From a virus, in IMG/VR virus record IMGVR_UViG_3300042465_008176, positions 1 through 64,000 of that record: a stretch of 64,000 nucleotides of DNA; one strand, 5' to 3'. Both the position numbers and the translations under genes were made by a program. Below are positions 3,194 to 63,984 of this stretch, piece by piece. The notes beneath the pieces were generated by a model. The model was given only the letters and a program-made list of their open reading frames with translations, made no database searches and had not been told where the DNA came from. The number at the start of each line of letters is the position of its first letter. Positions within the stretch are counted from its first letter, which is position 1.

Positions 3194-3239
3194 AAAAATG
3201 AAGAAAAATGTGAAAAAAATGCATTTTTCTTCATTTTTT
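3194..3239 (+). terminator. Rho-independent terminator, 17-bp stem
   Basis: A perfect 17-base inverted repeat, 3194-3210 against 3222-3238, with an 11-base loop and a run of T. It lies between a stop codon and the next promoter. Similar A/T-rich TGCATTTTT hairpins precede the promoters at 14.8, 21.8 and 26.9 kb, so terminator and promoter form a recurring unit. Confidence 0.8.
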
Positions 3240-3651: not shown

Positions 3652-3852
3652 ATGAAAGCAAAACAATATATGTATTTTGGACCGATTGGAATTTTTGGCC
3701 CTGAAATCAAAACCTTTGATTCGTTTGAAGATATTCCAGCTCGCATCAAAAAGCAAATGATGAATCACAAGACAGGTGATTGGAAACTACTAAAAGCCGT
3801 AGGCGATAAGATCTTTCTATGCGACCGAGCAGGTCGTATCAAAACTAAATAA
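3652..3852 (+). CDS. 66-residue hypothetical protein
   Basis: Begins MKAKQYMYFGPIGIFGPEIK. Compact mixed alpha/beta sequence, no motif recognised. Spaced 23 bases from its neighbours with the recurring ACTCTAACACAATC-type leader instead of a Shine-Dalgarno site. Confidence 0.65.
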   Translation: MKAKQYMYFGPIGIFGPEIKTFDSFEDIPARIKKQMMNHKTGDWKLLKAVGDKIFLCDRAGRIKTK

Positions 3853-8009: not shown

Positions 8010-8191
8010 ATAAAGCAAAACTATTAGGAGGCATTCTCGTATCATTGCCATTTACAATATATCTTTGTCTTATGGTAAAGGAATATGGTTTACATGATGT
8101 GCTTATTGCTGCTGGTTATGTATTAGGATTTCTGTTAATGTGGTTTTCACTTATGTTAGGAATATCATTATTAACCAATGGACAAGATTGA
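8006..8191 (+). CDS. two-helix membrane protein
   Basis: 61 residues with two hydrophobic segments (about 5-24 and 33-57). Overlaps the phosphoesterase stop by four bases. No family recognised; immediately upstream of the first tetrapeptide-repeat gene. Confidence 0.6.
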   Translation: MNKAKLLGGILVSLPFTIYLCLMVKEYGLHDVLIAAGYVLGFLLMWFSLMLGISLLTNGQD

Positions 8192-8193
8192 AT

Positions 8194-8400
8194 ATGAATA
8201 TTGAAGATAAAATAAATCGCTCAGTTTGGAACTCAGTTTGGAACTCAGTTTATGACTCAGTTTGGGACACTGTTAATAACTCAGTCTATGACTCAGTTGA
8301 TAACTCGGTTGATGACTCAGTTCGTGGCTCGGTTGTTGACTCAGTTCGTGTCTCAGTTCATGACTCACTTAACGTTGCAATAAAAGAATATGAATATTAA
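8194..8400 (+). CDS. xxSV tetrapeptide-repeat protein
   Basis: 68 residues. After MNIEDKIN the protein is about 13 tandem four-residue units ending in SV (WNSV, YDSV, NNSV, RGSV), then a conserved tail IKEYEY. The DNA repeat is 12 bases with a near-constant TCAGTT core. It is one of at least 14 such genes in three clusters here. The function is unknown to me; the strict four-residue period differs from the five-residue repeats of pentapeptide proteins. ATG 8194 is chosen because MNIxxxI begins every family member. Confidence 0.8.
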   Translation: MNIEDKINRSVWNSVWNSVYDSVWDTVNNSVYDSVDNSVDDSVRGSVVDSVRVSVHDSLNVAIKEYEY

Positions 8401-16794: not shown

Positions 16795-17437
16795 GAAAAA
16801 TCGTAAAGACTATCACAACATCAAGTTTTGCAGTGACCTGCATTTTGGCCATGATAAAGATTTTGTCTATGCCAAACGCGGATTCAACAGCGCACGTGAG
16901 CATGCACTATGGCTCATTGACCAATTGGAGACACTGCACAGCGATGACCTGCTTGTGGTATTGGGCGATGTTGGTTTGAGTATCGGACCAGACTCTATTG
17001 CTGAACTTGTTCGTAGCCTTAAATGCGAAACACTTATGGTCTGGGGTAATCATAACAGCGGTGTTAAACAGCTTTATGATGCAGCACTGCCTGATGAATA
17101 TAAGAGCTGTGAAATTTATCCGCTGCGGATTACTCACAATGTGACAATGCTTGGAGACTCTGCGATGCTGCATGTTGACTCACGTCGTTACTATCTTACA
17201 CATATGTGTCCGCTTGTATGGCCTGAGCTAGGCCGCGGTGCAGTTACACTCTGTGGACATAGCCATGGCTCGCTCAAAGGTATTAATGCACATCACAGTG
17301 TACATGACATTTACGGGCCGATCCTTGATTGTGGAATTGAAAACACTCTCTCATATAACAAGAGTGCATTTTTCACGGTTGAAGAGGTGGACACCATTCT
17401 CTCAGGCCGAAAAAAAGCTGCAATTGATCATCATTAA
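16781..17437 (+). CDS. calcineurin-like metallophosphoesterase
   Basis: 218 residues. Motifs: CSDLHFGHD (residues 17-25), LGDVGLS, WGNHNSG and GHSHGS, giving the complete metal-binding set with Asn-His in the GNH motif. Distinct from the enzyme at 7503 (only the motifs agree). Adjacent to the RNA ligase, so a role in RNA end healing (removal of 2',3' phosphate) is plausible but unproven. Confidence 0.87.
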   Translation: MIRIKKNRKDYHNIKFCSDLHFGHDKDFVYAKRGFNSAREHALWLIDQLETLHSDDLLVVLGDVGLSIGPDSIAELVRSLKCETLMVWGNHNSGVKQLYDAALPDEYKSCEIYPLRITHNVTMLGDSAMLHVDSRRYYLTHMCPLVWPELGRGAVTLCGHSHGSLKGINAHHSVHDIYGPILDCGIENTLSYNKSAFFTVEEVDTILSGRKKAAIDHH

Positions 17438-17461
17438 GCCGTTTTAGGCGGTTTTTACAGA

Positions 17462-17502
17462 GTGAAAAACCTATACGTATCTATAGGTTTTTCACTTTTT
17501 TC
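17462..17502 (+). terminator. strong Rho-independent terminator
   Basis: 14-base perfect stem GTGAAAAACCTATA (17462) with TATAGGTTTTTCAC (17482), six-base loop, then TTTTTT. Ends the RNA ligase operon. Confidence 0.9.
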
Positions 17503-17522
17503 ACATTTTCATCATTTTTTGT

Positions 17523-17551
17523 TTTACAAGTATGTGTTTTTATGGTAGAAT
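17523..17551 (+). promoter_or_regulatory. sigma70-type promoter
   Basis: TTTACA at 17523, 17-base spacer, TAGAAT at 17546 (one change from consensus), then AATCATGTAACC. Confidence 0.8.
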
Positions 17552-17573
17552 AATCATGTAACCAAACCACATT

Positions 17574-17954
17574 ATGAATCTATCAGAAATTAAGCAAGCA
17601 GTTCGTGAAGGCAAAACCGTTCATTGGGGCACCACGGCATATGTCGTAACTCTTTTCGAGAAAGGCGGAGAGGAATATTGGAACATCAAATGTCCTTGGA
17701 ATAATTACTGCTTTGGCTTGACTGGTGCAAATGATACACTCGAATGCAAGGAAGAAGACTTCTTCATCGTGGCGTATTGCTCTCTCCCTTCACACGAAGA
17801 AATCTCGGAACAAATTTTAAAATTTGTAGATCTTTGCCTAAACACACCTGAGATGCATAACAGAGAATCACTGGATATGCTTATTGCCGATCTGCAGCAA
17901 TACCGAAACACTATTCCCACATGTGAGGAATATATGGAACAAAATCTGCTCTAA
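17574..17954 (+). CDS. hypothetical protein
   Basis: 126 residues. N-terminal strand-rich part (HWGTTAYVVTLFEKGGEEYW) then an acidic helical part. The opening MNLSEIKQAVREGKTVHWGT resembles small phage proteins that carry an unnamed N-terminal domain. Not recognised further. Confidence 0.65.
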   Translation: MNLSEIKQAVREGKTVHWGTTAYVVTLFEKGGEEYWNIKCPWNNYCFGLTGANDTLECKEEDFFIVAYCSLPSHEEISEQILKFVDLCLNTPEMHNRESLDMLIADLQQYRNTIPTCEEYMEQNLL

Positions 17955-17984
17955 GAACTCGTAACTCAAATAACACTATATATT

Positions 17985-18134
17985 ATGATCAACGAAGAAA
18001 TTGAATTTAATCTTATTGAAAAACGTATTCGCGAATTGAACAATATTGAGTGTCTCGACGAAGATCAACTATTTGAATATACCGAATTGCTTCGTCAGCG
18101 TTGGGAACTTATGAAATCAATTCTTTGGGGTTAA
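17985..18134 (+). CDS. 49-residue helical protein
   Basis: MINEEIEFNLIEKRIRELNN then an acidic helix; probably one helical hairpin. Not recognised. The next gene starts with a similar A-rich leader and MISEE, after which sequence character changes abruptly. Confidence 0.55.
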   Translation: MINEEIEFNLIEKRIRELNNIECLDEDQLFEYTELLRQRWELMKSILWG

Positions 18135-18149
18135 CATTAAACTTATATT

Positions 18150-18455
18150 ATGATCAGCGAAGAACGAGTTGAAACACTAAAGAGCGTCAAATCTCGCCAA
18201 GCCATTTGGACCGAATGGATGCGCCGCCTTGTTCGCTGGGGCTGGTTTGCATGTTTTCTTGGGAACCATGAGTGGTATCGTCGCCTCTACGGAGGTCTTT
18301 GGGCGCATGTCCACGTCGAGGAACCTTGCTACTCCTGCATGTGGCTCAACTGCCCCGTGGGTGCTGATGAAACCTACCGCGAATGGAACTGGCGCGGCAC
18401 TCCAGAGTTCCGCAATTACGATTCAGCGAACGCCTCTGTGGAGGCACGCCAATAA
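18150..18455 (+). CDS. chimeric first ORF of the cassette array
   Basis: 101 residues. The first ~27 residues (MISEERVETLKSVKSRQAIW) lie in phage-like AT-rich DNA; from about 18231 the DNA is GC-richer and carries the right half of an attC-like site (CCGCCTTGTTCGCT). The rest is Trp/Cys-rich (GNHEWYRRLYGGLW, CYSCMW) and ends in an attC left arm (NASVEARQ). It looks like a phage gene start fused to a captured cassette. No function recognised. Confidence 0.55.
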   Translation: MISEERVETLKSVKSRQAIWTEWMRRLVRWGWFACFLGNHEWYRRLYGGLWAHVHVEEPCYSCMWLNCPVGADETYREWNWRGTPEFRNYDSANASVEARQ

Positions 18456-18511
18456 CGACTATGAATACACCAACAGACTCCGAGGCGTTGCCTCTCACGA
18501 ATTGTTCGGCT
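18425..18511 (+). repeat. attC-like site 1
   Basis: Left core AGCGAAC with inner arm GAGGCACGCC; right inner arm GGCGTTGCCTC and right core GTTCGGCT. The arms pair as an imperfect hairpin with one extrahelical base, the attC signature. The loop holds ATGAATACACC, the start of the next frame. Confidence 0.8.
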
Positions 18512-18556
18512 TCTTTGATTCCGCACTTAACCTTCAAAGATTACAATGGAGGAACA

Positions 18557-18727
18557 ATGCGTGAGTGGCGAATCTTCTGCCAAAGCGGGTGCGGTGGTGA
18601 GGGGTTTTACTGTAAGACCAAGGCTGAATGCGTGGAACAGGCGTGGTCTGCTGGGTGGCGTGTTTTTAGTGGAAAGCCCAAATGTAATAATTGTCTGCCG
18701 AACAGGCAAGATCAGGAGCGGCAATAG
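18557..18727 (+). CDS. cassette protein, possible zinc ribbon
   Basis: 56 residues from ATG 18557, behind a Shine-Dalgarno (ATGGAGGAACA). Four cysteine pairs/singles (FCQSGCGG, FYCKTKAEC, CNNC) suggest metal binding. The same frame is open upstream to 18462, where an ATG sits in the attC loop, so a longer form is possible. The C terminus (LPNRQDQERQ) is encoded by the left arm of site 2. Confidence 0.6.
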   Translation: MREWRIFCQSGCGGEGFYCKTKAECVEQAWSAGWRVFSGKPKCNNCLPNRQDQERQ

Positions 18728-18827
18728 CCGTGTTCTGTATCGACATGTTCAATTTACAACAATATGAAAACAGAATCAGACTCAAATAACACGGCGGGCG
18801 CGGTTGCTCAGGAGCGACTTGTTCGGT
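18697..18827 (+). repeat. attC-like site 2
   Basis: Left core GCCGAAC, right core GTTCGGT; inner arms CAGGAGC/GCTCAGGAGC and GCCGTG/CACGGC pair. Loop of about 55 bases carries the ATG of the next gene. Confidence 0.75.
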
Positions 18828-19075
18828 GTGTTTGGAATAACCTAGCGGCTTCGCTAATCTGCACGCCCTTGCTCAGTGGAATCACTGTATTCACATACGG
18901 GCTAGGCGGTCATGCTGACTTAGTTGCATGGTGCGCTGCTGCCCTCGGACTGTCCGTTGGATGGATGGCGGGACTGTGTGGCGTGCTCGTTGTAATTTCT
19001 TCACCGAACGTCGATGTGATGGCATCGCTGCCGAACGCAAAGCACACGCACCCGCCCACTCAAAACCATGAATAA
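18764..19075 (+). CDS. cassette membrane protein
   Basis: 103 residues with two hydrophobic segments (about 28-48 and 55-82). The first ~20 residues (MKTESDSNNTAGAVAQERLV) are encoded within the right arm of attC site 2 and the last ~14 within the left arm of site 3. Not recognised; membrane proteins are common among integron cassettes. Confidence 0.65.
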   Translation: MKTESDSNNTAGAVAQERLVRCVWNNLAASLICTPLLSGITVFTYGLGGHADLVAWCAAALGLSVGWMAGLCGVLVVISSPNVDVMASLPNAKHTHPPTQNHE

Positions 19076-19117
19076 AGAACAGACTTCCAGCGGGTTGCGT
19101 GATGCGGCTTGTTGTGC
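19030..19117 (+). repeat. attC-like site 3
   Basis: Left core GCCGAAC, inner arm CACGCACCCGC; right inner arm GCGGGTTGCGTG with one extra T, right core GTTGTGC. The inner stem is almost perfect. Confidence 0.8.
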
Positions 19118-19346
19118 CGTTGATTTTGACGGGTGGCCTTTTGTGGTCACTATCGACCGCAACAGGATGGAACGCAGATATGTCCTGAGAACGGTTGATA
19201 CCACAGACGGATTGATGGCTGCAAGAAACGATCCGATGACGGGGGAAGAGTTCAGGGAACACTACGGATTCAGCGAGGAGTTCCCGCACGAATTTATTCA
19301 GCACAACGCCCAAGGTGACTTACAGAGTCCCGACAAAAAATCATGA
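19068..19346 (+). CDS. cassette protein, unknown
   Basis: 92 residues. N terminus MNKEQTSSGLRDAACC comes from the attC right arm, the C terminus HNAQGDLQSPDKKS from the next left arm. The middle (DFDGWPFVVTIDRNRMERRY) looks like a small alpha/beta fold. Overlaps both neighbours slightly. Not recognised. Confidence 0.6.
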   Translation: MNKEQTSSGLRDAACCAVDFDGWPFVVTIDRNRMERRYVLRTVDTTDGLMAARNDPMTGEEFREHYGFSEEFPHEFIQHNAQGDLQSPDKKS

Positions 19347-19398
19347 ATACACCAAAAGACCCAACGGGAGGCTGTTGTCCTCCACCGCCTTGTTCGCC
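19301..19398 (+). repeat. attC-like site 4
   Basis: Left core GCACAAC, right core GTTCGCC; inner arms AGTCCCG and CGGGAGGCT pair imperfectly. ATGAATACACC lies in the loop, as at site 1. Confidence 0.7.
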
Positions 19399-20011
19399 AT
19401 TTGTGGTTCACTGCAAACGGTCGAAGCATGACGTGTGTATCGGCAGGCCGTCGAAATGGGGAAACCCGTTTGAGATTGGGAAGGACGGCGACCGGGAAAC
19501 CGTGATCCGAAAATACCGTGAATGGGTAGTAACTCAACCGCATCTCATGGCTGCGCTGCATGAACTGCGCGGAAAAGTGTTGGGGTGCTGGTGCGCTCCG
19601 CAAGCCTGCCACGGGGACGTTCTTGTTTCTTTGGCGAACGATCAAGGTGAGGCACGGGCGGAAAGCGCCACTCCGATACCTCATAAACTCTCTAAGCACA
19701 TGGAAACTTCGACACACACCGCCCCGCCCGTTGTCCTCGACCACCTTGTTAGCTCTTCTTGGGCGATTCGGTTCCTCAAGGAATGTCCCACGGGATACAA
19801 GGAGGCGATTCGACGAGCAGGGGAACCCGTGGAAATATACGAAACCGACGAGACGGGAGATGTCCAGTGGGCGATTACGTTGGAGGACGGATTCTGGATG
19901 GATGCGCTACCAACTAAGGAGGAGGCCGAGAGTCTTGTGGCTGATATGGGATGGCCGATTATTGGAGCTAACGTCGAGGTAGCCCACGAATCGGGCGAGA
20001 AAAGATCATGA
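19343..20011 (+). CDS. two cassette genes read as one (DUF4326 + unknown)
   Basis: 222 residues crossing attC site 5. Residues about 20-97 match DUF4326 (VVHCKRSKHDVCIGRPSKWG, later GCWCAPQACHGDVLVSLA), a small phage/bacterial domain with conserved Cys/His. The frame then runs through the attC arm (NDQGEARAESATPIP) without a stop into a second gene whose own start is probably ATG 19700 (METSTHTAPPVVLDHLVSSS), an unrecognised acidic protein of about 103 residues. A read-through fusion made by cassette joining is the likely reason. Confidence 0.7.
   Translation: MNTPKDPTGGCCPPPPCSPFVVHCKRSKHDVCIGRPSKWGNPFEIGKDGDRETVIRKYREWVVTQPHLMAALHELRGKVLGCWCAPQACHGDVLVSLANDQGEARAESATPIPHKLSKHMETSTHTAPPVVLDHLVSSSWAIRFLKECPTGYKEAIRRAGEPVEIYETDETGDVQWAITLEDGFWMDALPTKEEAESLVADMGWPIIGANVEVAHESGEKRS
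19633..19754 (+). repeat. attC-like site 5
   Basis: Left core GGCGAAC, arm AGGTGAGGCACGGGCGG; right arm CCCGCCCGTTGTCCTCGACC, right core GTTAGCT. Strong pairing with one unpaired base. Lies inside an open reading frame. Confidence 0.8.
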
Positions 20012-20063
20012 ATACAAAACCAACTCCACCGCCCGATTCGTTGGGCTCACCGTCTTGTGGTGC
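19966..20063 (+). repeat. attC-like site 6
   Basis: Left core AGCTAAC; inner arms GCCCACGAATCGGGCG and CGCCCGATTCGTTGGGC pair over 16 bases with one extra T. The right core is degenerate (GTGGTGC), so recombination here may be impaired. Confidence 0.75.
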
Positions 20064-20367
20064 TTCTTCCGAACCCGAGTGGAAGCCCGACTACACAAAG
20101 ACCCCTCGCCGCGTGGTATGCGCTGCTAATCGGCACCGTGTGAACAAGCTGCTAATCATCTGCGGTGCTCGGCACTGGGACAAGCTCATGAGGGTGCAAG
20201 CCAATGCTATGGGTCACGACTTCAAAGCATGGGATCAAGGATTCGTGGATCAGTTCGGGGACTGGATGACCCGTGAAGAAGCGTGGATCGTCGCCGTCGA
20301 TCAGAACCAAGTCCGTCGACGCTGCGGGGGCGATGGCGAGCGGCTGTTCAGCGAGAACCTTTATTAG
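20008..20367 (+). CDS. cassette protein of a phage-associated family
   Basis: 119 residues. The blocks LIICGARHWDKLMR, QGFVDQFGDWMTREEAW and a final LFSENLY are those of a widespread phage/prophage protein of unknown function. N-terminal ~25 residues (MNTKPTPPPDSLGSPSCGAS) are encoded by the attC right arm. Finding a phage family inside a cassette hints at cassette traffic between phages and integrons. Confidence 0.75.
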   Translation: MNTKPTPPPDSLGSPSCGASSEPEWKPDYTKTPRRVVCAANRHRVNKLLIICGARHWDKLMRVQANAMGHDFKAWDQGFVDQFGDWMTREEAWIVAVDQNQVRRRCGGDGERLFSENLY

Positions 20368-20420
20368 CACAACAGCCAAGCACAGGCACGCCCAGCGTTG
20401 CTTGATGCGGAATGTTCGGA
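20367..20420 (+). repeat. attC-like site 7 (short type)
   Basis: Left core GCACAAC, arm AGCACAGGCACGCC; right arm AGCGTTGCTTGATGCGG, right core GTTCGGA. Only 54 bases long, with almost no loop, as in the shortest integron attC sites. Confidence 0.75.
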
Positions 20421-20435
20421 ACAACAAACAATAAA

Positions 20436-20633
20436 ATGAACCAACACCTCAAGAAAACAATCACAAAGATACGTCGTCAGCGAAGAAACGGAAGGTCTAA
20501 CAAGAAAAGCATTCAAAAAGGACACGTCCACAAATGGAATCTCGGATGCACAATCATTATCGGGAAAAGAACCCCCATGAGGTATCATTGGTGCTATTGC
20601 GGAGACCATAGAACAACTGAAATAAACTCATGA
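20436..20633 (+). CDS. cassette basic protein with CxC end
   Basis: 65 residues from ATG 20436. Very basic N-terminal half (KTITKIRRQRRNGRSNKKSI), then HKWNLGCTIIIGKRTPMRYH and WCYCGDHR, possibly a metal or nucleic-acid binding end. Not recognised. Confidence 0.55.
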   Translation: MNQHLKKTITKIRRQRRNGRSNKKSIQKGHVHKWNLGCTIIIGKRTPMRYHWCYCGDHRTTEINS

Positions 20634-20803
20634 CTGGTCTCGAAGAAATGACAGACAAAAACAGAGAAGAGAAAATAGCAAGGCTGCGAGTTCTCTGCCG
20701 AACGACAAAGATCTGGCGCGGCGGGCGCTGGACTCCGAATAAACCAAACAGGCAACTTCCCGCCGTTGCCAGCATTCACTTGTTAGCCTCTTACGAATTA
20801 TGA
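20630..20803 (+). CDS. small cassette ORF running through attC 8
   Basis: 57 residues, ATG overlapping the previous stop (ATGA) and TGA overlapping the next ATG. Its second half is encoded entirely by attC site 8. Tight overlaps favour translation, but the protein is not recognised. Confidence 0.4.
   Translation: MTGLEEMTDKNREEKIARLRVLCRTTKIWRGGRWTPNKPNRQLPAVASIHLLASYEL
20697..20788 (+). repeat. attC-like site 8
   Basis: Left core GCCGAAC, arm ATCTGGCGCGGCGGG; right arm CCCGCCGTTGCCAGCAT, right core GTTAGCC. Inner stem nearly perfect with one unpaired base. Confidence 0.8.
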
Positions 20804-20997
20804 AGAAACTCCGCAAACTAAAAACAGGTAGCCGCCAATGGCTTGCACAACTCATGGAAACCGTAATCGGGGAATGCCCCGAACTGGTCGAATGCGACCA
20901 TTGCGGGCGAGTAATCCGAAACGGGTATGTCTGCTGCCACTGCGGAAGCGATGACCCTGGTGAAAACATCATCCGCCCCGAGGAATTTCTTGGCTAA
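20800..20997 (+). CDS. cassette zinc-ribbon protein
   Basis: 65 residues. CDHCGRVIRNGYVCCHCG gives two CxxC knuckles of a zinc ribbon. Ends at the left core of attC site 9. Likely binds zinc; partner unknown. Confidence 0.7.
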   Translation: MKKLRKLKTGSRQWLAQLMETVIGECPELVECDHCGRVIRNGYVCCHCGSDDPGENIIRPEEFLG

Positions 20998-21123
20998 CGC
21001 CACAGCGCAGACACCGCCGATCTACAACCAAACAAACGACCAAAACACCAATGAACTCTGAATTGCCAAACGATACCCAAAACACCAGCAACAAGGCGGT
21101 TGATCTGCCGCGACTTGTTCGGC
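20992..21123 (+). repeat. attC-like site 9
   Basis: Left core GGCTAAC, arm AGCGCAGACACCGCC; right arm GGCGGTTGATCTGCCGCG, right core GTTCGGC. ATG of the next gene lies in the loop at 21051. Confidence 0.8.
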
Positions 21124-21395
21124 TTCTTGCGGTGGCTCAACCAGTGATGGAAGCATGGGCAAAATACCACGAACTGGACGAGTGGCATTGTCGCTGCGAA
21201 GACATGATCGGCACGGCATACCCGCGCAATCTCTGCCCCGTGTGCTGTGTGGAGTCCTCGATCAACTGGCGGGACGGTAAGCCGTATTACTACTGCCCCG
21301 ATCACGGCGAACTGGATGACCTTTATTCTGAGCCGAACGCACAAGGTGAGGCACGCGGCGAGAGCGCCACTCCGACCACGCCCAAACCTCAGTAA
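21051..21395 (+). CDS. last cassette gene, zinc-binding protein
   Basis: 114 residues. WHCRCEDMIG, CPVCCVE and YYYCPDHGELDD supply Cys/His clusters of a zinc-binding domain. N-terminal ~30 residues come from attC 9; the tail NAQGEARGESATPTTPKPQ comes from an unpaired left attC arm and is almost the same as the internal DQGEARAESATP segment of the 19343 ORF. Confidence 0.65.
   Translation: MNSELPNDTQNTSNKAVDLPRLVRLLAVAQPVMEAWAKYHELDEWHCRCEDMIGTAYPRNLCPVCCVESSINWRDGKPYYYCPDHGELDDLYSEPNAQGEARGESATPTTPKPQ
21332..21372 (+). repeat. orphan attC left half-site
   Basis: GCCGAAC followed by GCACAAGGTGAGGCACGCG matches the left arms of sites 4 and 5, but no matching right arm is found downstream before the phage genes resume. 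It could complete the isolated right half at about 18215-18237. Confidence 0.6.
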
Positions 21396-21400
21396 CTACC

Positions 21401-21559
21401 ATGGAAAATCAAATTGGTGATGACGAATGTGGATATTGGGAAAGATACGAATATGATGATGAAGGCAACGAGATACTACACGAAAGCTTGATCCAATCAT
21501 CTGTTAGACTTGAAGACGACGAAAATTATGAAACATTTACAAGACATCCCTTGCTTTGA
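21401..21559 (+). CDS. 52-residue acidic protein
   Basis: MENQIGDDECGYWERYEYDD and an acidic tail; phage-like AT-rich DNA resumes here. It overlaps the next gene by 32 bases in another frame. Not recognised. Confidence 0.5.
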   Translation: MENQIGDDECGYWERYEYDDEGNEILHESLIQSSVRLEDDENYETFTRHPLL

Positions 21560-21755
21560 TTGCGACGGCACTCTGCGTGTCGAATATCAGAAGTTCGACA
21601 AAACGGTCGAAGGACAAAACTATGTTGTGGAGAATGTGCCTGTTCATAAGTGTGACTCTTGCGGAGATGAAGTCTTAAGCTCTGCGGCATGTCGCTACAT
21701 TGAAGAACAGCTACCGCCTCGTCCACTGCGTGGCCCACGGCGCATCAAGGACTAA
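21528..21755 (+). CDS. YgiT/MqsA-type zinc-finger protein
   Basis: 75 residues from ATG 21528. CFDCDGTLRVEYQKF and ENVPVHKCDSCGDEVLSSAA are the two CxxC halves of the YgiT-type zinc domain found at the N terminus of MqsA antitoxins. The DNA-binding C-terminal half of MqsA is absent and no toxin gene is adjacent, so it may be a stand-alone zinc protein. Confidence 0.8.
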   Translation: MKHLQDIPCFDCDGTLRVEYQKFDKTVEGQNYVVENVPVHKCDSCGDEVLSSAACRYIEEQLPPRPLRGPRRIKD

Positions 21756-21783
21756 AAAAGTCTCCCCAAGGAGTATTTTTGTG

Positions 21784-21810
21784 AAAAAAATGCATTTTTT
21801 CGCATTTTTT
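21784..21810 (+). terminator. terminator-like A/T hairpin
   Basis: AAAAAATGCATTTTTT palindrome followed by CGCATTTTTTT, just before a promoter; a weaker GC hairpin (CTCC-CCAA-GGAG) lies at 21762. Confidence 0.45.
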
Positions 21811-21812
21811 TA

Positions 21813-21841
21813 TTTACAAGTGTGCATTTTTGTGGTAGAAT
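21813..21841 (+). promoter_or_regulatory. sigma70-type promoter
   Basis: TTTACA at 21813, 17-base spacer, TAGAAT at 21836, then AATCTTGTAACC. Confidence 0.8.
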
Positions 21842-21863
21842 AATCTTGTAACCAAATCACATC

Positions 21864-22016
21864 ATGACCGATAATAAAGAATACTACGAAATGTTCGCCG
21901 CCGTTCAAAGAGGCGAGATCACTCAAGAGGCTTGGGTTGACTACTGCATGAAGCTGCTCGCTGATATCATGGAAGACAACAAAGATGTCTTCATCCGTTT
22001 GAAGTACCGCGGCTAA
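21864..22016 (+). CDS. 50-residue hypothetical protein
   Basis: MTDNKEYYEMFAAVQRGEIT followed by an acidic helix with WVDYCMKLLADIM. First gene behind the promoter. Not recognised, although EYYEMFxAVQRGEITxExW-type sequences occur in other phages. Confidence 0.6.
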   Translation: MTDNKEYYEMFAAVQRGEITQEAWVDYCMKLLADIMEDNKDVFIRLKYRG

Positions 22017-23184: not shown

Positions 23185-23337
23185 ATGAATATTAACGATA
23201 AAATAAATCTCTCAGTTAATGTCTCTGTTTGGGGCTCAGTTTATGGCTCAGTTAGTGACTCAGTACATGGCTCAGTCTATGACTCTGTTAGGGACTCTGT
23301 TAATGCTCAAATGTTAGAATATAATTATGACTACTGA
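23185..23337 (+). CDS. xxSV tetrapeptide-repeat protein
   Basis: 50 residues: MNINDKIN, about eight four-residue units (VWGSV, YGSV, HGSV, YDSV), tail QMLEYNYDY. Its stop overlaps the next ATG by 11 bases. Shortest complete member of the second cluster. Confidence 0.75.
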   Translation: MNINDKINLSVNVSVWGSVYGSVSDSVHGSVYDSVRDSVNAQMLEYNYDY

Positions 23338-23527
23338 AGAAAAAATATTGAAATCTGTTTGGGTCTCTGTTGGGGTCTCTGTTGGGGTCTCTGTTGGGAA
23401 CTCTGTTTGGAACTCTGTTTGGGACTCTGTTGGGGTCTCTGTTTGGAACTCTGTTTGGAACTCTGTTAGGGTCTCTGTTAGGGACTCTGTTAATGCGCAG
23501 ATGCTAGAATATAATTATGACTACTGA
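23327..23527 (+). CDS. xxSV tetrapeptide-repeat protein
   Basis: 66 residues: start MTTEEKILKSV, about 12 units dominated by WVSV, GVSV and WNSV, tail MLEYNYDY. The start region is duplicated in the next gene, and codon TCT replaces TCA in most units, so this gene and the next form a subfamily. Confidence 0.8.
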   Translation: MTTEEKILKSVWVSVGVSVGVSVGNSVWNSVWDSVGVSVWNSVWNSVRVSVRDSVNAQMLEYNYDY

Positions 23528-23795
23528 AGAAAAAATATTGAAATCTGTTTGGGTCTCTGTTTGGAACTCTGTTGGGGTCTCTGTTGGGGTCTCTGTTTGG
23601 GACTCTGTTTGGGACTCTGTTTGGGACTCAGTACATAGCTTAGTACATGTCTCAGTACATGTCTCTGTTCGTAGCTCAGTTAGAGACTCGGTTAGTAACT
23701 CAGTTTGGAGCTCAGTACATGGCTCAGTTTGGAACTTAGTTGAGAGCTCAGTTGAGAACTCTGTTAACGCTACAATGAAAGAATATGGATATTAA
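23517..23795 (+). CDS. xxSV tetrapeptide-repeat protein, longest
   Basis: 92 residues with about 19 units. The first part uses TCT codons like its upstream neighbour and the second uses TCA like the other cluster members, so the gene looks like a recombinant. Ends KEYGY. Overlaps both neighbours by 11 bases. Confidence 0.8.
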   Translation: MTTEEKILKSVWVSVWNSVGVSVGVSVWDSVWDSVWDSVHSLVHVSVHVSVRSSVRDSVSNSVWSSVHGSVWNLVESSVENSVNATMKEYGY

Positions 23796-23994
23796 ACGGG
23801 AAATAGATCTCTCAGTCGAAAAATCAGTTAGCGGCTCAGTTTGGGACTCAGTTAATAACTCAGTTTATGACTCAGTTGATATCTCAGTTTGGAACTCAAT
23901 ACATCGCTCTGTTTGGAACTCAGTTATGAACTCAGTTATGAACACAGTTAACGCTACAATAGTAGAATATGAATATAGGATACGCAATAAATGA
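23785..23994 (+). CDS. xxSV tetrapeptide-repeat protein
   Basis: 69 residues, start MDIKREIDLSV, about 12 units. An 80-base stretch (23811-23890) is identical to 29278-29357 in the third cluster, showing recent copying between loci. Tail EYEYRIRNK is extended because the usual stop is lost. Confidence 0.8.
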   Translation: MDIKREIDLSVEKSVSGSVWDSVNNSVYDSVDISVWNSIHRSVWNSVMNSVMNTVNATIVEYEYRIRNK

Positions 23995-29223: not shown

Positions 29224-29227
29224 TTGT

Positions 29228-29422
29228 ATGAATATTGAAAAGGTAATATATACCTCAGTTTATGACTCAGTTAATAACTCAGTCGAAAAATCAGTTAGCG
29301 GCTCAGTTTGGGACTCAGTTAATAACTCAGTTTATGACTCAGTTGATATCTCAGTTTATGGCTCAGTTGAGAGCTCTGTTGAGAGCTCTGTTAACGCTGC
29401 AGTAAAAGAATATGAATATTGA
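29228..29422 (+). CDS. xxSV tetrapeptide-repeat protein, first of third cluster
   Basis: 64 residues: MNIEKVIYTSV, about 12 units, tail VKEYEY. Shares an identical 80-base block with the gene at 23785. First of nine consecutive overlapping genes just behind a terminator. Confidence 0.8.
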   Translation: MNIEKVIYTSVYDSVNNSVEKSVSGSVWDSVNNSVYDSVDISVYGSVESSVESSVNAAVKEYEY

Positions 29423-29564
29423 AAAGGAAGTATATAGTGCAGTTTATGACTCAGTTCGTAGCTCAGTTCGTAGCTCAGTTTGGAACTTAGTTAGCGGCTC
29501 AGTTCGTAACTCAGTTTGGAACACTGTTGACATTACAATAAAAGAATATGAATACGAATATTAA
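29412..29564 (+). CDS. xxSV tetrapeptide-repeat protein
   Basis: 50 residues: MNIEKEVYSAV, about eight units (RSSV, WNLV, RNSV), tail IKEYEYEY. Overlaps the previous gene by 11 bases and the next by 17. Confidence 0.75.
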   Translation: MNIEKEVYSAVYDSVRSSVRSSVWNLVSGSVRNSVWNTVDITIKEYEYEY

Positions 29565-29760
29565 AAAGGAAATAGATGGCTCAGTTAATAACTCAGTTAA
29601 TAGATCAGTTAGTAGCTCAGTTTTTGATACAGTATATAATTCTGTTCATATATTACCTATCACCACGATTGGTAGCAAGGTCACTCAGCCTGTTGCTGGT
29701 TCAGTTGGCATTTCTGTTGGTATTAATATAAAGAGTGAAATAAAAGAATATGGATATTAA
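29548..29760 (+). CDS. tetrapeptide-repeat protein with non-repeat end
   Basis: 70 residues: MNTNIKKEIDGSV, six SV units, then ITTIGSKVTQPVAGSVGISV without period, tail IKEYGY. A mosaic of repeat and other sequence. Confidence 0.75.
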   Translation: MNTNIKKEIDGSVNNSVNRSVSSSVFDTVYNSVHILPITTIGSKVTQPVAGSVGISVGINIKSEIKEYGY

Positions 29761-29947
29761 ACAAGATTTGCGGCAAGAGCTATGGTCTGCAACATGGGAG
29801 TATGTTTTGGATAATGGTGATAGAATAACAGGTACCCTACCAACAATATCGCTTTATAATAGTGTTCGTAACTCGTTTCAGGATTCTATAGGAGATGCTG
29901 GGCGGTACAATAATTTAGCAGCACACATAGCAGAGTATGGATATTAA
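29750..29947 (+). CDS. family ends with unrelated centre
   Basis: 65 residues: MDIKQDLRQELWSATWEYVL and tail HIAEYGY. The ends and 11-base overlaps fit the family but the centre (NGDRITGTLPTISLYNSVRN) is not repetitive, as if a different domain were placed between standard ends. Confidence 0.65.
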   Translation: MDIKQDLRQELWSATWEYVLDNGDRITGTLPTISLYNSVRNSFQDSIGDAGRYNNLAAHIAEYGY

Positions 29948-30191
29948 AAAGGAAATATATTATTCAGTCGATGACTCAGTTAATCGCTCAGTTGATGTCT
30001 CACTTCGTAAGATAGTTTATGACTCAGTCTATGACTCAGTCTATGACTCAGTTAGTGACTCAGTACATGGCTCAGTTTGGGACTCAGTTAGGAACTCAGT
30101 ACATGACTCAGTTAATGTCTCAGCTTATGTCTCAGTTTATGGCTCAGTTGAGAGCTCTGTTAATATTACACTAAGGGAGTATGAATATTGA
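29937..30191 (+). CDS. xxSV tetrapeptide-repeat protein
   Basis: 84 residues with about 17 units, including three consecutive YDSV units encoded by identical 12-base repeats. Ends LREYEY. Confidence 0.8.
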   Translation: MDIKKEIYYSVDDSVNRSVDVSLRKIVYDSVYDSVYDSVSDSVHGSVWDSVRNSVHDSVNVSAYVSVYGSVESSVNITLREYEY

Positions 30192-30375
30192 AAAGGAAAT
30201 ATATAGTGCAGTTTATGACTCAGTTCGTAGCTCAGTTCGTAGCTCAGTTCGTAACTTAGTTTATAACTCAGTTTATAACTCAGTTTATAACTCAGTTTAT
30301 GACTCAGTTTTTGTCTCAGTTTGGGACTCAGTTGATGACAATTTGCGGAGTGAAATAGAAGAGTATGAATATTGA
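30181..30375 (+). CDS. xxSV tetrapeptide-repeat protein
   Basis: 64 residues, about 11 units with three consecutive YNSV; ends IEEYEY. Confidence 0.8.
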   Translation: MNIEKEIYSAVYDSVRSSVRSSVRNLVYNSVYNSVYNSVYDSVFVSVWDSVDDNLRSEIEEYEY

Positions 30376-30571
30376 AAAGGAAATAGATGACTCAGTTAAT
30401 AACTCAGTCCGTGACTCAGTACATGGCTCAGTTTATGGCTCAGTTTGGGTCTCAGTTTGGGGCTCAGTTCATGACTCAGTTAGGAACTCAGTTAGGAACT
30501 CAGCTGGTATCTCAGTTAGTGACTCAGTTAGGAACTCTGTTAATATTACACTAAGGGAGTATGAATATTGA
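30365..30571 (+). CDS. xxSV tetrapeptide-repeat protein
   Basis: 68 residues, about 13 units (NNSV, RDSV, HGSV, WGSV, RNSV); ends LREYEY with the same 3' sequence as the gene at 29937. Confidence 0.8.
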   Translation: MNIEKEIDDSVNNSVRDSVHGSVYGSVWVSVWGSVHDSVRNSVRNSAGISVSDSVRNSVNITLREYEY

Positions 30572-30707
30572 AAAGGAAATATATAGTGCAGTTTATGACT
30601 CAGTTAATATCTCAGTTATTAACTCAGTTTGGAACTCAGTTTGGGGCTCAGTTCGTAACTCAGTTAGGAACACTGTTGACATTGCAATACAAGAATATGA
30701 ATATTGA
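30561..30707 (+). CDS. xxSV tetrapeptide-repeat protein
   Basis: 48 residues, eight units; first 45 bases match the start of the gene at 30181, and the end (RNTVDIAIQEYEY) matches that of 29412. ATG 30561 overlaps the upstream stop. Confidence 0.75.
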   Translation: MNIEKEIYSAVYDSVNISVINSVWNSVWGSVRNSVRNTVDIAIQEYEY

Positions 30708-30918
30708 AAAGGAAGTATATAGCTCAGTTTGTAACTCAGTTAGCGGCTCAGTTTGGGACTCAGTTAATAACTCAGTCCGTGACTCAGTACATGGCTCAGT
30801 TTATGTCTCAGTTTGGGGCTCAGTTTATGACTCAGTTAGAGACTCAGTTTATGGCTCAGTTTATGACTCAGTTAGCATTGCGATAAAGGATTATGAATAT
30901 GACAAAGCAATCAATTGA
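30697..30918 (+). CDS. xxSV tetrapeptide-repeat protein
   Basis: 73 residues from ATG 30697, about 13 units, tail IKDYEYDKAIN extended past the usual stop position. Last repeat gene of the cluster. Confidence 0.8.
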   Translation: MNIEKEVYSSVCNSVSGSVWDSVNNSVRDSVHGSVYVSVWGSVYDSVRDSVYGSVYDSVSIAIKDYEYDKAIN

Positions 30919-61683: not shown

Positions 61684-61758
61684 CGCGGGGTAGAGTAGAG
61701 GTAACTCAACGGTCTCATAAGCCGTGCACGTGGGTTCGAATCCCACCCGCCGCAACCA
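61684..61758 (+). tRNA. tRNA-Met (CAT), initiator-like
   Basis: D arm GAGT/ACTC, anticodon arm ACGGT-CTCATAA-GCCGT, T arm GTGGG-TTCGAAT-CCCAC, ACCA encoded. C1 opposite A72 and CGCGGGG start resemble initiator tRNA. One extra base in the 3' acceptor strand gives a bulge. Confidence 0.8.
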
Positions 61759-61802
61759 ATTTAATCTCAATATTCATATTGAGAGAATACCAACAGCATG
61801 CC

Positions 61803-61869
61803 AGTGTATCGTGCGTTGATAGTGGCTTACAAACCCATGTTGCAGTAGAAGGTTCTGCGTACACTCCCA
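61803..61869 (+). ncRNA. truncated tRNA-like element
   Basis: 67 bases closed by AGTGTAT/GTACACT with CCA at the end; a GCAG/CTGC arm sits at the T position and GTGG/CCAT with loop CTTACAAAC at the anticodon position. Arms are short and loops long, so it is a decayed or unusual tRNA. Confidence 0.4.
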
Positions 61870-62004
61870 TTTCAACTCCCCCGTGGCAGTACTAATTTCG
61901 TTACTATTGTAACTGTGGTTAACGCTGCAGCTATTACGAATGCAATGATTATTCAGAATTTCGGTGATCTGAATCCAAAGAAAACACCGTACAATTTTTC
62001 AATC
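61870..62004 (+). other. spacer with tRNA-Glu 3' remnant and hairpin
   Basis: CAACTCCCCCGTGGCAGTAC (from 61874) nearly repeats the 3' end of the tRNA-Glu at 62260, followed by a mutated CTA in place of CCA. Further on, ATTCAGA/TCTGAAT (about 61950-61973) forms a 7-bp hairpin. No intact tRNA seen. Confidence 0.45.
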
Positions 62005-62083
62005 CTCCGTGTACGCAAACTGGCAAAGCGACTGCCTTCAAGGGGCGGTGATATTGTGAGTTCGACTCTCACCTAGGAGACCA
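62005..62083 (+). tRNA. tRNA-Leu (CAA)
   Basis: Anticodon arm CTGCC-TTCAAGG-GGCGG, T arm GTGAG-TTCGACT-CTCAC, CCA encoded. Acceptor CTCCGTG/CTAGGAG has two mismatches and the variable arm is short for Leu. Confidence 0.6.
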
Positions 62084-62160
62084 ATTTTGAGAGCTGCAAC
62101 TCTCGTTAAGTGAACATCGAGACTCTGAGAAGAGAGGCTTGCAGGCCTTGAGTCAAAGAT

Positions 62161-62232
62161 GGCAATTATTGTGTAATGGCTTGCGCGCCCGTCGTGAAAA
62201 CGGGAGGGACGGTTCGATTCCGTATTTTGCTT
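62161..62232 (+). ncRNA. tRNA-like element, anticodon GTG-like
   Basis: Arm CCCGT-CGTGAAA-ACGGG at the anticodon position, T-arm-like ACGG-TTCGATT-CCGT, weak acceptor GGCAATT/TTTTGCT, no CCA. Base 33 is G not T, so it is probably not a normal decoding tRNA. Confidence 0.35.
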
Positions 62233-62259
62233 CGCTTGATGTTCATCTAATTTTCCAAC

Positions 62260-62334
62260 GCTGCCATCGTCTATCGGTTAGGACAAATGGTTTTCAACCA
62301 TTAGAGCGGGGTTCAACTCCCCGTGGCAGTACCA
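62260..62334 (+). tRNA. tRNA-Glu (TTC)
   Basis: Acceptor GCTGCCA/TGGCAGT, anticodon arm AATGG-TTTTCAA-CCATT, T arm CGGGG-TTCAACT-CCCCG, ACCA. Confidence 0.9.
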
Positions 62335-62344
62335 ATTTTCAAAA

Positions 62345-62433
62345 GTACGTGAGGCTACTGTTGGTTGTGTGGCGGCAGACTGTAACCCTGCTCATCAGAA
62401 ACATCGTTGGTTCGATTCCAACCGCGTACACCA
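62345..62433 (+). tRNA. tRNA-Tyr (GTA)
   Basis: Acceptor GTACGTG/CGCGTAC, anticodon loop CTGTAAC, long variable arm as for Tyr, T arm GTTGG-TTCGATT-CCAAC, CCA. Confidence 0.88.
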
Positions 62434-62440
62434 TTTTATT

Positions 62441-62515
62441 CCGAGGTTAGCATATGTAGTAATGTCCTGCCTTGTGACGGCAGCGAATATGGTGCAAGTC
62501 CATGACCGCGGACCA
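62441..62515 (+). tRNA. tRNA-His (GTG)
   Basis: Anticodon arm CTGCC-TTGTGAC-GGCAG, acceptor CCGAGGT/ACCGCGG with one mismatch, CCA. The T loop is TGCAAGT in place of TTCRANN. Confidence 0.75.
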
Positions 62516-62517
62516 TT

Positions 62518-62614
62518 TTTGAGCAGCGAGAACTCGGACTAAGTAAAAGGAGGTTCAACTCCTCCATTCTCTGGCTAGTCACTATCAGGATGACAACCTG
62601 ACTGCTCAAATCCA
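62518..62614 (+). tRNA. class II tRNA-like, anticodon CAA (Leu)
   Basis: Acceptor TGAGCAG/CTGCTCA; arm GGAGG-TTCAACT-CCTCC at the anticodon position; long variable region; T position arm TCAGG-ATGACAA-CCTGA with a non-standard loop; 3' end AATCCA. Geometry fits a long-variable-arm tRNA, but the D arm is poor. Confidence 0.45.
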
Positions 62615-62625
62615 CTTTCTTTAAT

Positions 62626-62702
62626 GCCTCCTTAGCTCAATTGGCAGTAGCAGCTCATTTGTAATGAGCAGGTTATCCGTTCAAGTCGGATAGGAGGCTC
62701 CA
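62626..62702 (+). tRNA. tRNA-Thr (TGT)
   Basis: Acceptor GCCTCCT/AGGAGGC, anticodon arm GCTCA-TTTGTAA-TGAGC, T arm ATCCG-TTCAAGT-CGGAT, CCA. Confidence 0.9.
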
Positions 62703-62707
62703 ATTTC

Positions 62708-62872
62708 AATTATGATACTATTCGGTGAGTTAGGTGCATATGTGTATGCATACAGGCTTGAAATTCCGTGCTGAAGATAATGTCAGTGTATCATAATTAA
62801 AGATCGCTACGATCTTCAGTAGCTAGCTTCAGTCCTAAGTGAGTCGTAGGCCGCAATGCTATGGACATACCA
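62708..62872 (+). ncRNA. 165-base structured tRNA-array element
   Basis: AATTATGATAC (62708) pairs with GTATCATAATT (62788), 11 bp, enclosing a small folded region; the downstream half contains GATCGCTACGATC and CCTA/TAGG hairpins and ends CATACCA plus the array spacer AATTTTCAA. Not a recognisable tRNA. Confidence 0.45.
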
Positions 62873-62881
62873 ATTTTCAAC

Positions 62882-62957
62882 TCCCGAGTAGCTCAATGGT
62901 AGATGCGCTGAGCTGTTAACTCAGATGTTGCACGTTCGAGTCGTGCCTCGGGAGCCA
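62882..62957 (+). tRNA. tRNA-Asn (GTT)
   Basis: Acceptor TCCCGAG/CTCGGGA, anticodon arm CTGAG-CTGTTAA-CTCAG, T arm GCACG-TTCGAGT-CGTGC, GCCA. Confidence 0.92.
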
Positions 62958-62966
62958 TTTTCAAAA

Positions 62967-63040
62967 GCGCTATAAGTGTTACGGTAGCACGTGATCCTTC
63001 CAAGTTCGAGGCGTGGGTTCGACTCCCACATGGCGTACCA
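62967..63040 (+). tRNA. tRNA-Gly (TCC)
   Basis: Acceptor GCGCTAT/ATGGCGT with wobble pairs, D arm GTGT/GCAC, anticodon loop CTTCCAA (stem has one T-T), T arm GTGGG-TTCGACT-CCCAC, ACCA. Confidence 0.8.
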
Positions 63041-63044
63041 ATTT

Positions 63045-63208
63045 TGACACAGACGGTCTAGCTGATGTAATTTACGAGACCATAAGAGAGGGTGACTGCG
63101 AGTGCGGATTTACGGAGTAAGTCTTTTAGACCGAAACAAAACAATATCTCGACAAGACCGGATACTTGAACAAATTTCTGCCTCTCAAACTTCAGCGTGT
63201 GTCATCCA
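63045..63208 (+). ncRNA. 164-base element with perfect acceptor-like stem
   Basis: TGACACA (63045) pairs with TGTGTCA (63198) and is followed by TCCA, exactly like a tRNA acceptor, but the interior is twice tRNA length and shows other stems (GGTCT/AGACC from 63055). No T arm or anticodon arm is recognisable. Confidence 0.5.
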
Positions 63209-63212
63209 ATTT

Positions 63213-63289
63213 ACTAGACTTCGTCTAAGCGTTAAGGACCTCACGACAGTACGTGAGAAGTGTAGGCTTCAATCTACAGTCTAGTTCTA
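63213..63289 (+). ncRNA. tRNA-like element with eight-base loops
   Basis: Acceptor ACTAGAC/GTCTAGT, arm CTCAC-GACAGTAC-GTGAG and arm TGTAG-GCTTCAAT-CTACA in the right order, 3' end TCTA in place of NCCA. Both loops have eight bases and T33 is absent, so decoding is unlikely. Confidence 0.45.
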
Positions 63290-63308
63290 ATTTACCTAAA
63301 CGGGCTCA

Positions 63309-63392
63309 TGAAACATAGGGACGGGCTCTTCCACCAGCGTGATGGCTGAAGTCTTCGGACGAAGAGTATGTATATCTTGCAGAAGTGTTTCA
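63309..63392 (+). ncRNA. structured RNA element with UUCG hairpin
   Basis: Outer stem TGAAACA/TGTTTCA (63309, 63386); inner stem CTCTTC/GAAGAG (63326, 63361); a CTTCGG tetraloop hairpin GTC-TTCG-GAC at 63351. Contains an internal CACCA. Not a normal tRNA. Confidence 0.45.
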
Positions 63393-63405
63393 ACTTAATT
63401 TTTAT

Positions 63406-63483
63406 CAGAGGGTGGTGGAGCGGTCTAACACACCTAGTTTGGAACTAGGAACAACGCAGGTTCAAATCCTGCCTCTCTGACCA
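63406..63483 (+). tRNA. tRNA-Pro (TGG)
   Basis: Acceptor CAGAGGG/CTCTCTG, anticodon arm CCTAG-TTTGGAA-CTAGG, T arm GCAGG-TTCAAAT-CCTGC, ACCA. Confidence 0.9.
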
Positions 63484-63491
63484 TTTTCAAT

Positions 63492-63570
63492 GGTTGTGTG
63501 AATTTCGACTTGGTAAGAAGTAGATTTCATAAGTCTAAGTATATAGGTTCAAATCCTATCACAACCACCA
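63492..63570 (+). tRNA. tRNA with CAT anticodon (Met or Ile2)
   Basis: Acceptor GGTTGTG/CACAACC, anticodon arm TAGAT-TTCATAA-GTCTA, T arm ATAGG-TTCAAAT-CCTAT, ACCA. Elongator Met, or Ile if C34 is lysidinylated. Confidence 0.85.
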
Positions 63571-63579
63571 AACTTCAAA

Positions 63580-63652
63580 GGGGATGTAGCTCAATTGGTA
63601 GAGCGCTTGCCTTGCACGCAGGATGTTGCAGATTCGAGTTCTGTCATCTCCA
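63580..63652 (+). tRNA. tRNA-Ala (TGC)
   Basis: Acceptor GGGGATG/CATCTCC, anticodon arm CTTGC-CTTGCAC-GCAGG, T arm GCAGA-TTCGAGT-TCTGT. CCA not encoded (ACTT), unlike its neighbours. Confidence 0.88.
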
Positions 63653-63662
63653 CTTTTTTAAT

Positions 63663-63739
63663 ACGACTATAGCTCAGATGGTCAGAGCACAGCTTTGATA
63701 AAGCTGGGGTCGAAGGTTCAAATCCTTCTAGTCGTACCA
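63663..63739 (+). tRNA. tRNA-Ile (GAT)
   Basis: Acceptor ACGACTA/TAGTCGT, anticodon arm CAGCT-TTGATAA-AGCTG, T loop TTCAAAT, ACCA. Confidence 0.92.
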
Positions 63740-63743
63740 TAAC

Positions 63744-63818
63744 GGACGTTAAGCTTTAATAGTGAAGCACATGGCTTTTAACCATGAGAACTGGGAGCAT
63801 TACCCAGAACGTCTACCA
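63744..63818 (+). tRNA. tRNA-Lys (TTT)
   Basis: Acceptor GGACGTT/AACGTCT, anticodon arm CATGG-CTTTTAA-CCATG, ACCA. The T loop is AGCATTA instead of TTCRANN. Confidence 0.8.
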
Positions 63819-63825
63819 ACTTTCT

Positions 63826-63900
63826 CCACACTTAGCTGAGATGGATTAGCACAAGACTGAAAATCTTGAGAGGACCGATCGTTACGGTCAGTGTGGACCA
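63826..63900 (+). tRNA. tRNA-Phe (GAA)
   Basis: Acceptor CCACACT/AGTGTGG, anticodon arm CAAGA-CTGAAAA-TCTTG, ACCA. The T loop is ATCGTTA instead of TTCRANN. Confidence 0.8.
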
Positions 63901-63904
63901 TAAT

Positions 63905-63984
63905 GCTCCTGTAGCTCAGTCGTGGTCAGAGCACCCGCCTTATAAGTGGGAGGTCATGGGTTCAATCCCCCATCAGGAGTACCA
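63905..63984 (+). tRNA. tRNA-Ile (TAT)
   Basis: Acceptor GCTCCTG/CAGGAGT, anticodon arm CCCGC-CTTATAA-GTGGG, ACCA. The T loop has one extra base. Reads ATA codons without lysidine. The array continues past the window. Confidence 0.85.

Follow-up and report, generated by a model that had tools for sequence, protein, structure and literature searches.

An integron cassette array lacking an integrase in a phage with T4-like genes, with apparently attC-first cassettes

Integrons are generally described as bacterial systems whose cassettes enter in a single orientation and are expressed from a promoter next to the integrase gene. Here we describe an integron cassette array in a phage, at positions 18231-21338 of the virus record IMGVR_UViG_3300042465_008176; the record is 73,442 bp long, and the window that we analysed, to whose positions all coordinates of the array refer, is its first 64 kb. 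The closest described systems are the phage CALINs, clusters of attC sites lacking an integrase and holding small cassette genes, of which the excerpted text of Qi et al. 2023 (PMC9892861) reports that five of six tested phage attC sites were recombined by IntI1 in E. coli.

The array consists of ten small cassettes, all on the plus strand, with nine attC sites between them and one half site at each edge. The phage genome that carries it has T4-like genes, including those for a UvsX-like recombinase, a ribonucleotide reductase and a virion protein that is most similar to cyanophage proteins (about 42% identity for the best matches). The G+C content is 0.49-0.55 across 18-21 kb, as compared to mostly 0.33-0.45 elsewhere in the window. 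An assembly chimera is unlikely, because a second, 100,774-bp virus record contains the same 20,654 bp, including the array, at 100% identity. No PF00589 tyrosine recombinase was found in the 73-kb record, where other signs of lysogeny were not searched for, and no TIGR02249 integron integrase in the 100,774-bp twin, both records being possibly incomplete. With more than two attC sites and no integrase nearby, the array classifies as a CALIN; the intI gene of a complete integron was not found in either record. A first-pass annotation of the DNA had anticipated nine complete attC sites with about ten same-strand genes, G/C enrichment relative to the phage DNA, the lack of an integrase and hence an attC cluster without one inside a phage. 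Our sequence analysis confirms that 18231-21338 is a genuine array of integron cassettes in a phage, lacking an integrase.

We identified the sites from core boxes placed by eye and from two covariance models that contain no window sequence, R1 (nine phage and three bacterial sites) and R2 (fifteen sites in bacterial genomes only). The procedure is partly circular: S1, S4 and S5 of the window seeded the pattern searches that supplied the rows of R1 and four rows of R2, and R1 in turn supplied the remaining eleven rows of R2. The strictest test is therefore offered by S3, S6 and S8, which seeded no pattern or model row, and which were recovered by R1 at E values of 2.9e-5, 5.2e-9 and 8e-8 and by R2 at 0.83, 9.3e-4 and 1.2e-4, respectively. 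Over the window, R1 found six of the nine sites (E 1.9e-25 to 2.9e-5, all on the plus strand) and missed S7 and S9, with its best match off the array at E 0.41. The best nine of 17 R2 matches (E up to 10) all lie in the array on the plus strand (E 1.3e-8 to 0.83), and the first match outside it follows at E 2.0.

From left to right on the plus strand, the row opens with S0 (about 18210-18237; R2 E 0.81), a right attC half at the left edge whose box GTTCGCT at 18231 matches AGCGAAC at 18425. S1 (18425-18510; R1 E 2.4e-13, R2 E 7.3e-6) is a type-1 site with a loop ATG at 18461 and a right half shared by ten viral stretches besides the twin. It is followed by S2 (18697-18827), recognized by its boxes, by R1 in part (E 0.22) and by R2 (E 0.33); by S3 (19030-19117); by the type-2 site S4 (19301-19398; R1 E 1.9e-25, R2 E 5.8e-4), with a loop ATG at 19343; and by S5 (19633-19754; R2 E 1.3e-8, R1 E 7e-8) and S6 (19966-20063). 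The short S7 (20367-20420) is the weakest and is missed by both models. S8 (20697-20788) has a near-identical counterpart in another sequence, L060, and S9 (20992-21123) is recognized by its boxes and by an R2 match to its right part (E 0.073). At the right edge, S10 (21332-21375) is a left attC half; it lies in a 62-nt stretch that shares 77% identity with a stretch at the left half of S5. The window sites have paired L arms and AAC/GTT core boxes, except that S7 shows the boxes only.

The core boxes also carry a record of how the cassettes were made. For seven of the ten cassettes, the opening 7-bp box is the reverse complement of the closing box, with 67 of 70 letters matching, while the boxes match within a single attC site in none of the nine; among 200,000 permutations, 6 were as good (P 3e-5). 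These boxes are the ones placed by eye, and for cassette C we preferred the box indicated by structure over a perfectly matching one that begins 27 bp earlier. When sites were placed by model, boxes matched across 22 of 32 cassettes and within 3 of 56 viral sites, beyond all 50,000 permutations, in a count from which 8 of 68 sites without a recognizable box were dropped and in which contigs sharing sequence were not all removed. Matching boxes at the start and end of a cassette are what an array should have, because a circle closed by a crossover inside the core box leaves exactly such a trace. The first-pass annotation had seen matching GCCGAAC/GTTCGGC words at the ends of one site's two halves; the halves of a site usually do not end in this way, and the match lies instead between the two ends of a cassette. 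The box rule, the recovery of the sites by an attC model from bacterial genomes, and a moved unit that breaks at GAACG (see below) all argue against a scenario in which these are not integron sites, but repeated intergenic hairpins shuffled by homologous recombination. Phages are known to be mosaic and the folding energies mostly do not fall below those of shuffled sequences, as such hairpins would have it; all the same, we consider this explanation extremely improbable.

The R1 structure covaries, with nine pairs changed on both sides against a shuffled mean of 3.8, and a covariation score of 0.212 against 0.099. Three extra bases lie on the right arm in the alignment and structure. Single-sequence folds agree with this only partly. 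The aligned phage sites have an expanded loop with an ATG, mostly ATGAATACACC, while the three bacterial sites aligned alongside are short hairpins; other bacterial attC sites are longer, but mostly without an ATG that reads through. According to the excerpted account of attC anatomy in PMC2727003, extrahelical bases lie on the R''-L'' arm, recombination takes place only at R', and a G follows the AAC of R' in most sites. In our data, the AAC of the left box is followed by a G in 79 of 92 viral sites and in 46 of 49 Verrucomicrobial ones. The agreement of both the extra-base arm and this G with the published anatomy suggests that the phage left box is the crossover box, in which case the phage unit would be an attC together with the gene downstream of it.

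A canonical cassette has the gene followed by its attC, with the coding strand as the attC top strand; the polarity in the array is reversed. In Verrucomicrobiota, the longest open reading frame (ORF) between sites is on the strand opposite the attC model in 25 of 26 intervals and on the same strand in one, whereas in viral contigs, leaving out the near-duplicate L190, it is on the model strand in 38 of 46 intervals, with 4 opposite and 4 ties (Fisher 2e-13). Counted by single sites as same, opposite and tie, the figures are 68, 18 and 2 of 88 for viruses and 9, 50 and 2 of 61 for Verrucomicrobiota, the latter set including at least one phage contig; in other phyla, none of four is on the same strand. 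Likewise, in seven pairs of homologous cassette bodies with both flanking sites known, the upstream site is the more alike in four and the downstream site in none. Taken together, these comparisons demonstrate, at the level of sequence, an order of attC first and then gene in phage cassettes, reversed with respect to bacterial ones.

The distribution of site subtypes is also skewed towards viruses. The type-1 subtype, which the right half of S1 defines, was found in 11 viral stretches (the twin record accounts for one) and in none of the 84,980 genomes scanned, an absence that is weaker evidence than it looks because genome bins often lose integron arrays. The type-2 subtype (S4 and S5) was found in 18 viral stretches, of which 17 are attC by eye and two belong to the twin, and in 15 genome stretches; ten of the latter were rejected by eye as coding matches and five are attC, with which R1 agrees. 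In 387 Verrucomicrobiota genomes, R1, which is mainly a type-2 model, reached at most 56.5 bits, on a phage contig and with few candidates scored per genome, against 83.9 for S4; the other window sites score 12.9-48.2 bits, so that this contrast covers the type-2 form only. These data bear on whether the array could be an ordinary bacterial cassette cluster captured from a host's chromosomal integron, with its polarity and ATGs incidental. Such a capture would account for the L boxes common to phage and bacterial sites, and sources are available, given that an integron integrase at E 1e-50 or better was detected in 113 of the 387 Verrucomicrobiota genomes (above cut-off in 107) and that host-derived phage cassette clusters are described in the excerpted text of PMC9892861. 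It does not predict the opposite strand of bacterial cassette genes, the presence of the type-1 half site in viruses only, the lower R1 scores in Verrucomicrobiota or the scarcity there of read-through ATGs in the loop (see below), and we regard it as distinctly unlikely. Rather than to a chromosomal integron as donor, as the first pass had envisaged, the evidence points to a phage-type cassette pool, some of it in phages that bear an integrase. Separately, a phage contig with a phage-type attC (G162:C38, L274) sits inside a Verrucomicrobiota genome bin, a hint that this phylum may include hosts.

In viral integrase contigs, 24 of 31 sites have a loop ATG whose frame reads at least 90 nt past the box, compared to 5 of 62 Verrucomicrobial sites under the same model (Fisher 1.7e-11). 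The 31 sites remain from 40 model matches after nine were dropped (near-duplicates L179, L181 and L194, and one minus-strand match), and L189 and L190 share sites among them; the 62 are all but one of 63 sites, the last being too near a contig end. In 57 of the 62, the loop is short, or long without a read-through ATG, and one of the other five sits on a phage contig with terminase, portal and head protease genes. We rely on these numbers instead of a count of 48 of 63, which is biased because an ATG pattern scan helped choose the sites; that scan returned 93 viral stretches, which we judged by eye to be mostly unrelated coding sequence. Of 5,000 random stretches taken on the same strand of these phages, 1,709 also read through by this measure, and since they do so often in such dense DNA, the contrast with bacteria deserves more weight than the raw fraction. 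The loop ATG of ORFs B, D, E and G in the window overlaps or directly adjoins the preceding stop codon (gaps 5, -8, -4 and -4), and that of C and J is farther from it (gaps 36 and 53). None of 16 distinct leaders contains a stop codon.

These observations suggest that the loop ATG may be used as a start codon. The sites could also be real and translation begin at internal starts, the open leader being fortuitous, which would be in line with the lack of amino-acid conservation in the leader codons (7 synonymous and 8 non-synonymous changes for type 1, 10 and 31 for type 2), with a GGAGG-ATG inside ORF B, and with the pass rate of random stretches. We find this doubtful, as bodies A, C and F lack an in-frame ATG near their start, the loop-ATG contrast with bacteria holds within one model, and for four ORFs, though not for C and J, the ATG is placed at the preceding stop.

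Some phages that bear attC sites have integron integrases of their own. They occur in 2 of 31 attC-bearing viral records (4 + 7 + 20, some with a single site or a half site only), on the gene strand and downstream. The two integrases, in G016 (278 bits against a cut-off of 265) and G029 (180 bits), have 2a3v as best PDB match, listed as IntI4 and presumably the V. cholerae protein, and TIGR02249 as best NCBIfam model. Genes for terminase, portal, major head and tape-measure proteins are present in both records. Scanning viruses with an integrase alignment yielded 32 loci, 12 of them with R1 sites (some loci being duplicates), and 39 of 40 R1 matches at these loci are on the integrase strand, mostly upstream of the integrase. 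A downstream integrase was considered as a phage-only trait and dropped, since four Verrucomicrobial contigs also have attC upstream of the integrase on the model strand, with only the genes flipped. We compared the nine integrases beside phage-type attC with the 20 that scored best in Verrucomicrobiota, three further viral integrases and one of Shewanella. In the resulting tree, the nine lie on the same side of a modestly supported branch (90/72) and form two clades, of which one has a very long stem; L186, whose locus has a single weak site, falls outside. The virus Rctr41k has an integrase-like gene and no R1 or convincing attC within the 11.6 kb examined. Three further viral-collection contigs (L184, L185 and L188) have an integron integrase of 316-339 bits and no R1 attC in the stretch examined.

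Evidence of movement comes from L189 and L190, two of the integrase contigs, which are 99.4% identical across 7.65 kb including the integrase. A unit of about 750 bp lies at two different places in them, and the junction that it splits in L190 is uninterrupted in L189. At both ends, identity is lost at GAACG or no more than a few bases away from it. In both contigs, R2 places an attC where the unit begins (3724-3813 in L190 and 6263-6352 in L189), and the ORF of the unit in L190 starts inside this attC, at 3740.

The explanation that we favour for the array, with a probability of roughly 0.78, is that of phage-type, attC-first cassettes mobilized by an integrase in trans, read from upstream and starting in the attC loop. 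An integron-type tyrosine recombinase, supplied by the host or a co-infecting phage, would act on the folded attC strand, which is here the coding strand, and cross over at the AAC of the left core box, probably between A and C by analogy with known attC sites. Given a crossover there, the excised circle would carry the attC with its gene, and an empty junction at array positions would read NNNNAACG. As no integrase is found in either record, the cassettes would have come with help in trans, or may by now be fixed. The half sites at the edges (S0, a right half, and S10, a left half) would fit acquisition of the block by a rarer event. Since the genes face the other way from those of bacterial cassettes, the whole row could be read by a phage transcript starting at a promoter-like site upstream (17.52 kb), with translation of most cassettes starting at the ATG in their own attC loop; neighbouring genes are probably translationally coupled, because this ATG is often close to or overlaps the preceding stop. 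More broadly, we think it probable that these cassettes represent an integron kind of the phages' own, in which attC-first, self-starting cassettes are read toward a downstream, same-strand phage integrase of separate lineage, and the pool is shared among diverse phages, including those without an integrase.

Several observations weigh against this picture. Neither this phage's record nor its twin holds an integrase, S7 escapes both models, and single-sequence DNA folding clearly beats shuffles for S6 only (z -3.9), the others having z from -1.5 to +0.2. The polarity is opposite in the 4 viral intervals and 18 viral sites counted above. Start in the loop is at odds with the unconserved leader codons, with the internal GGAGG-ATG of ORF B and with S8, whose loop has no ATG. 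Attachment of each gene to the site before it has exceptions as well: the attC sites at 5914 and 6297 in L189 and L190 are 98% identical, yet the genes after them differ, an outcome not predicted by attC-first units; upstream of cassette E lies a type-2 attC in this phage and a type-1 half site in L006-L008; and the sites ahead of two related bodies in L102 are unrelated to each other.

With regard to transcription, we counted 7 promoter-like sites in 17400-22000, as compared to a mean of 5.1 in shuffles. The best two, at 17523-17561 upstream and 21813-21851 downstream of the array, both on the plus strand, are exact copies of TTTACAAG-N-ATAATNNTGTAA. That internal promoters are absent, as the first pass had it, holds insofar as these two sites flank the array, and fails for a weaker one inside, at 20648. 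Looser copies of this conserved repeat lie near 3209, 14771 and 26834.

The cassette genes are all on the plus strand. ORF A (18150-18455) joins a phage-like start, 95% identical over 21 nt to the start region of the preceding gene, to the first cassette body. ORF B (18461-18727) takes its leader MNTPTDSEALPLTNCS from S1, has a weak phrog_926 match (E 0.0004) and a body that recurs in the phage contig L102. ORFs C (18764-19075) and D (19068-19346) follow. Cassettes E and F form a single open frame (19343-20011), with a DUF4326 cassette (PF14216, 98 bits; phrog_464) reading in frame through S5 into F, a cassette fusion. ORF G (20008-20367) belongs to the phrog_839 family (E 8.1e-33); in ORF H (20412-20633), the first ATG overlaps the box and a second lies at 20436; the Cys-rich ORF I (20800-20997) starts after the box; and ORF J (21051-21395) has its ATG inside S9 and ends past S10. 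The other array ORFs tested against Pfam and PHROGs had no match below E 0.004. A relative about 70% identical elsewhere (L008, 7885-8500) has DUF4326 and other cassette-like sequence at a different place, suggesting repeated cassette uptake. Searches by blastn with the array and its flanks, and with one phage attC, gave no matches in 50,697 phage records. Elsewhere in the window, neighbouring copies of a small-protein family of four-residue repeats (SVWNSVWDSVYDSV..., many with an EYEY end) occur at 8140-8400, 23223-23976 and 29227-30918, and 14 tRNA genes form one run at 61685-63984; an Rfam scan found nothing but tRNAs at Rfam thresholds.

If the proposed reading is true, flipped cassettes with a start codon in attC would be a second working integron solution, and phages would have gained a modular system of gene capture, which would account for the hopping of small accessory genes from one phage to another, even among diverse ones. 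This reading also makes testable whether a single DNA hairpin can double as recombination site and start of translation, and whether phage integrases maintain a pool of genes separate from that of their hosts.

Compared with known systems, the array shares with the CALINs of Qi et al. integrase-less phage attC clusters and small genes, and the excerpted text of that report (PMC9892861) mentions neither reversed polarity nor a start codon in the loop. In the phages of that study, R1 gave one match, in MW202573 1-30,000 (E 1.9e-4), and none in TJE1 1-49,000, H101 1-50,000 or the whole of M16-3. The temperate phages Shewanella M16-3 and those of Vibrio anguillarum are described there (PMC9892861, excerpted) as carrying IntI and cassettes within the phage, as do some phages in our data; in M16-3, IntI is on the strand opposite the neighbouring genes, whereas in the phages found here it is on the gene strand, downstream. 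Verrucomicrobiota chromosomal integrons have similar attC boxes and, in four contigs, attC upstream of the integrase on the model strand, and differ in having their cassette genes on the opposite strand. A short ORF in attC has been proposed to help ribosomes past the hairpin by termination-reinitiation (Jacquier et al., as summarized in the excerpted text of PMC8876359); that ORF is a separate one, whereas here the frame usually continues into the cassette gene. In the open-licence literature, we found no report of reversed cassettes with a start codon in attC or of a phage integron-integrase lineage. Therefore, while phage cassette clusters were known already, the reversed genes and a frame that usually starts inside attC look new.

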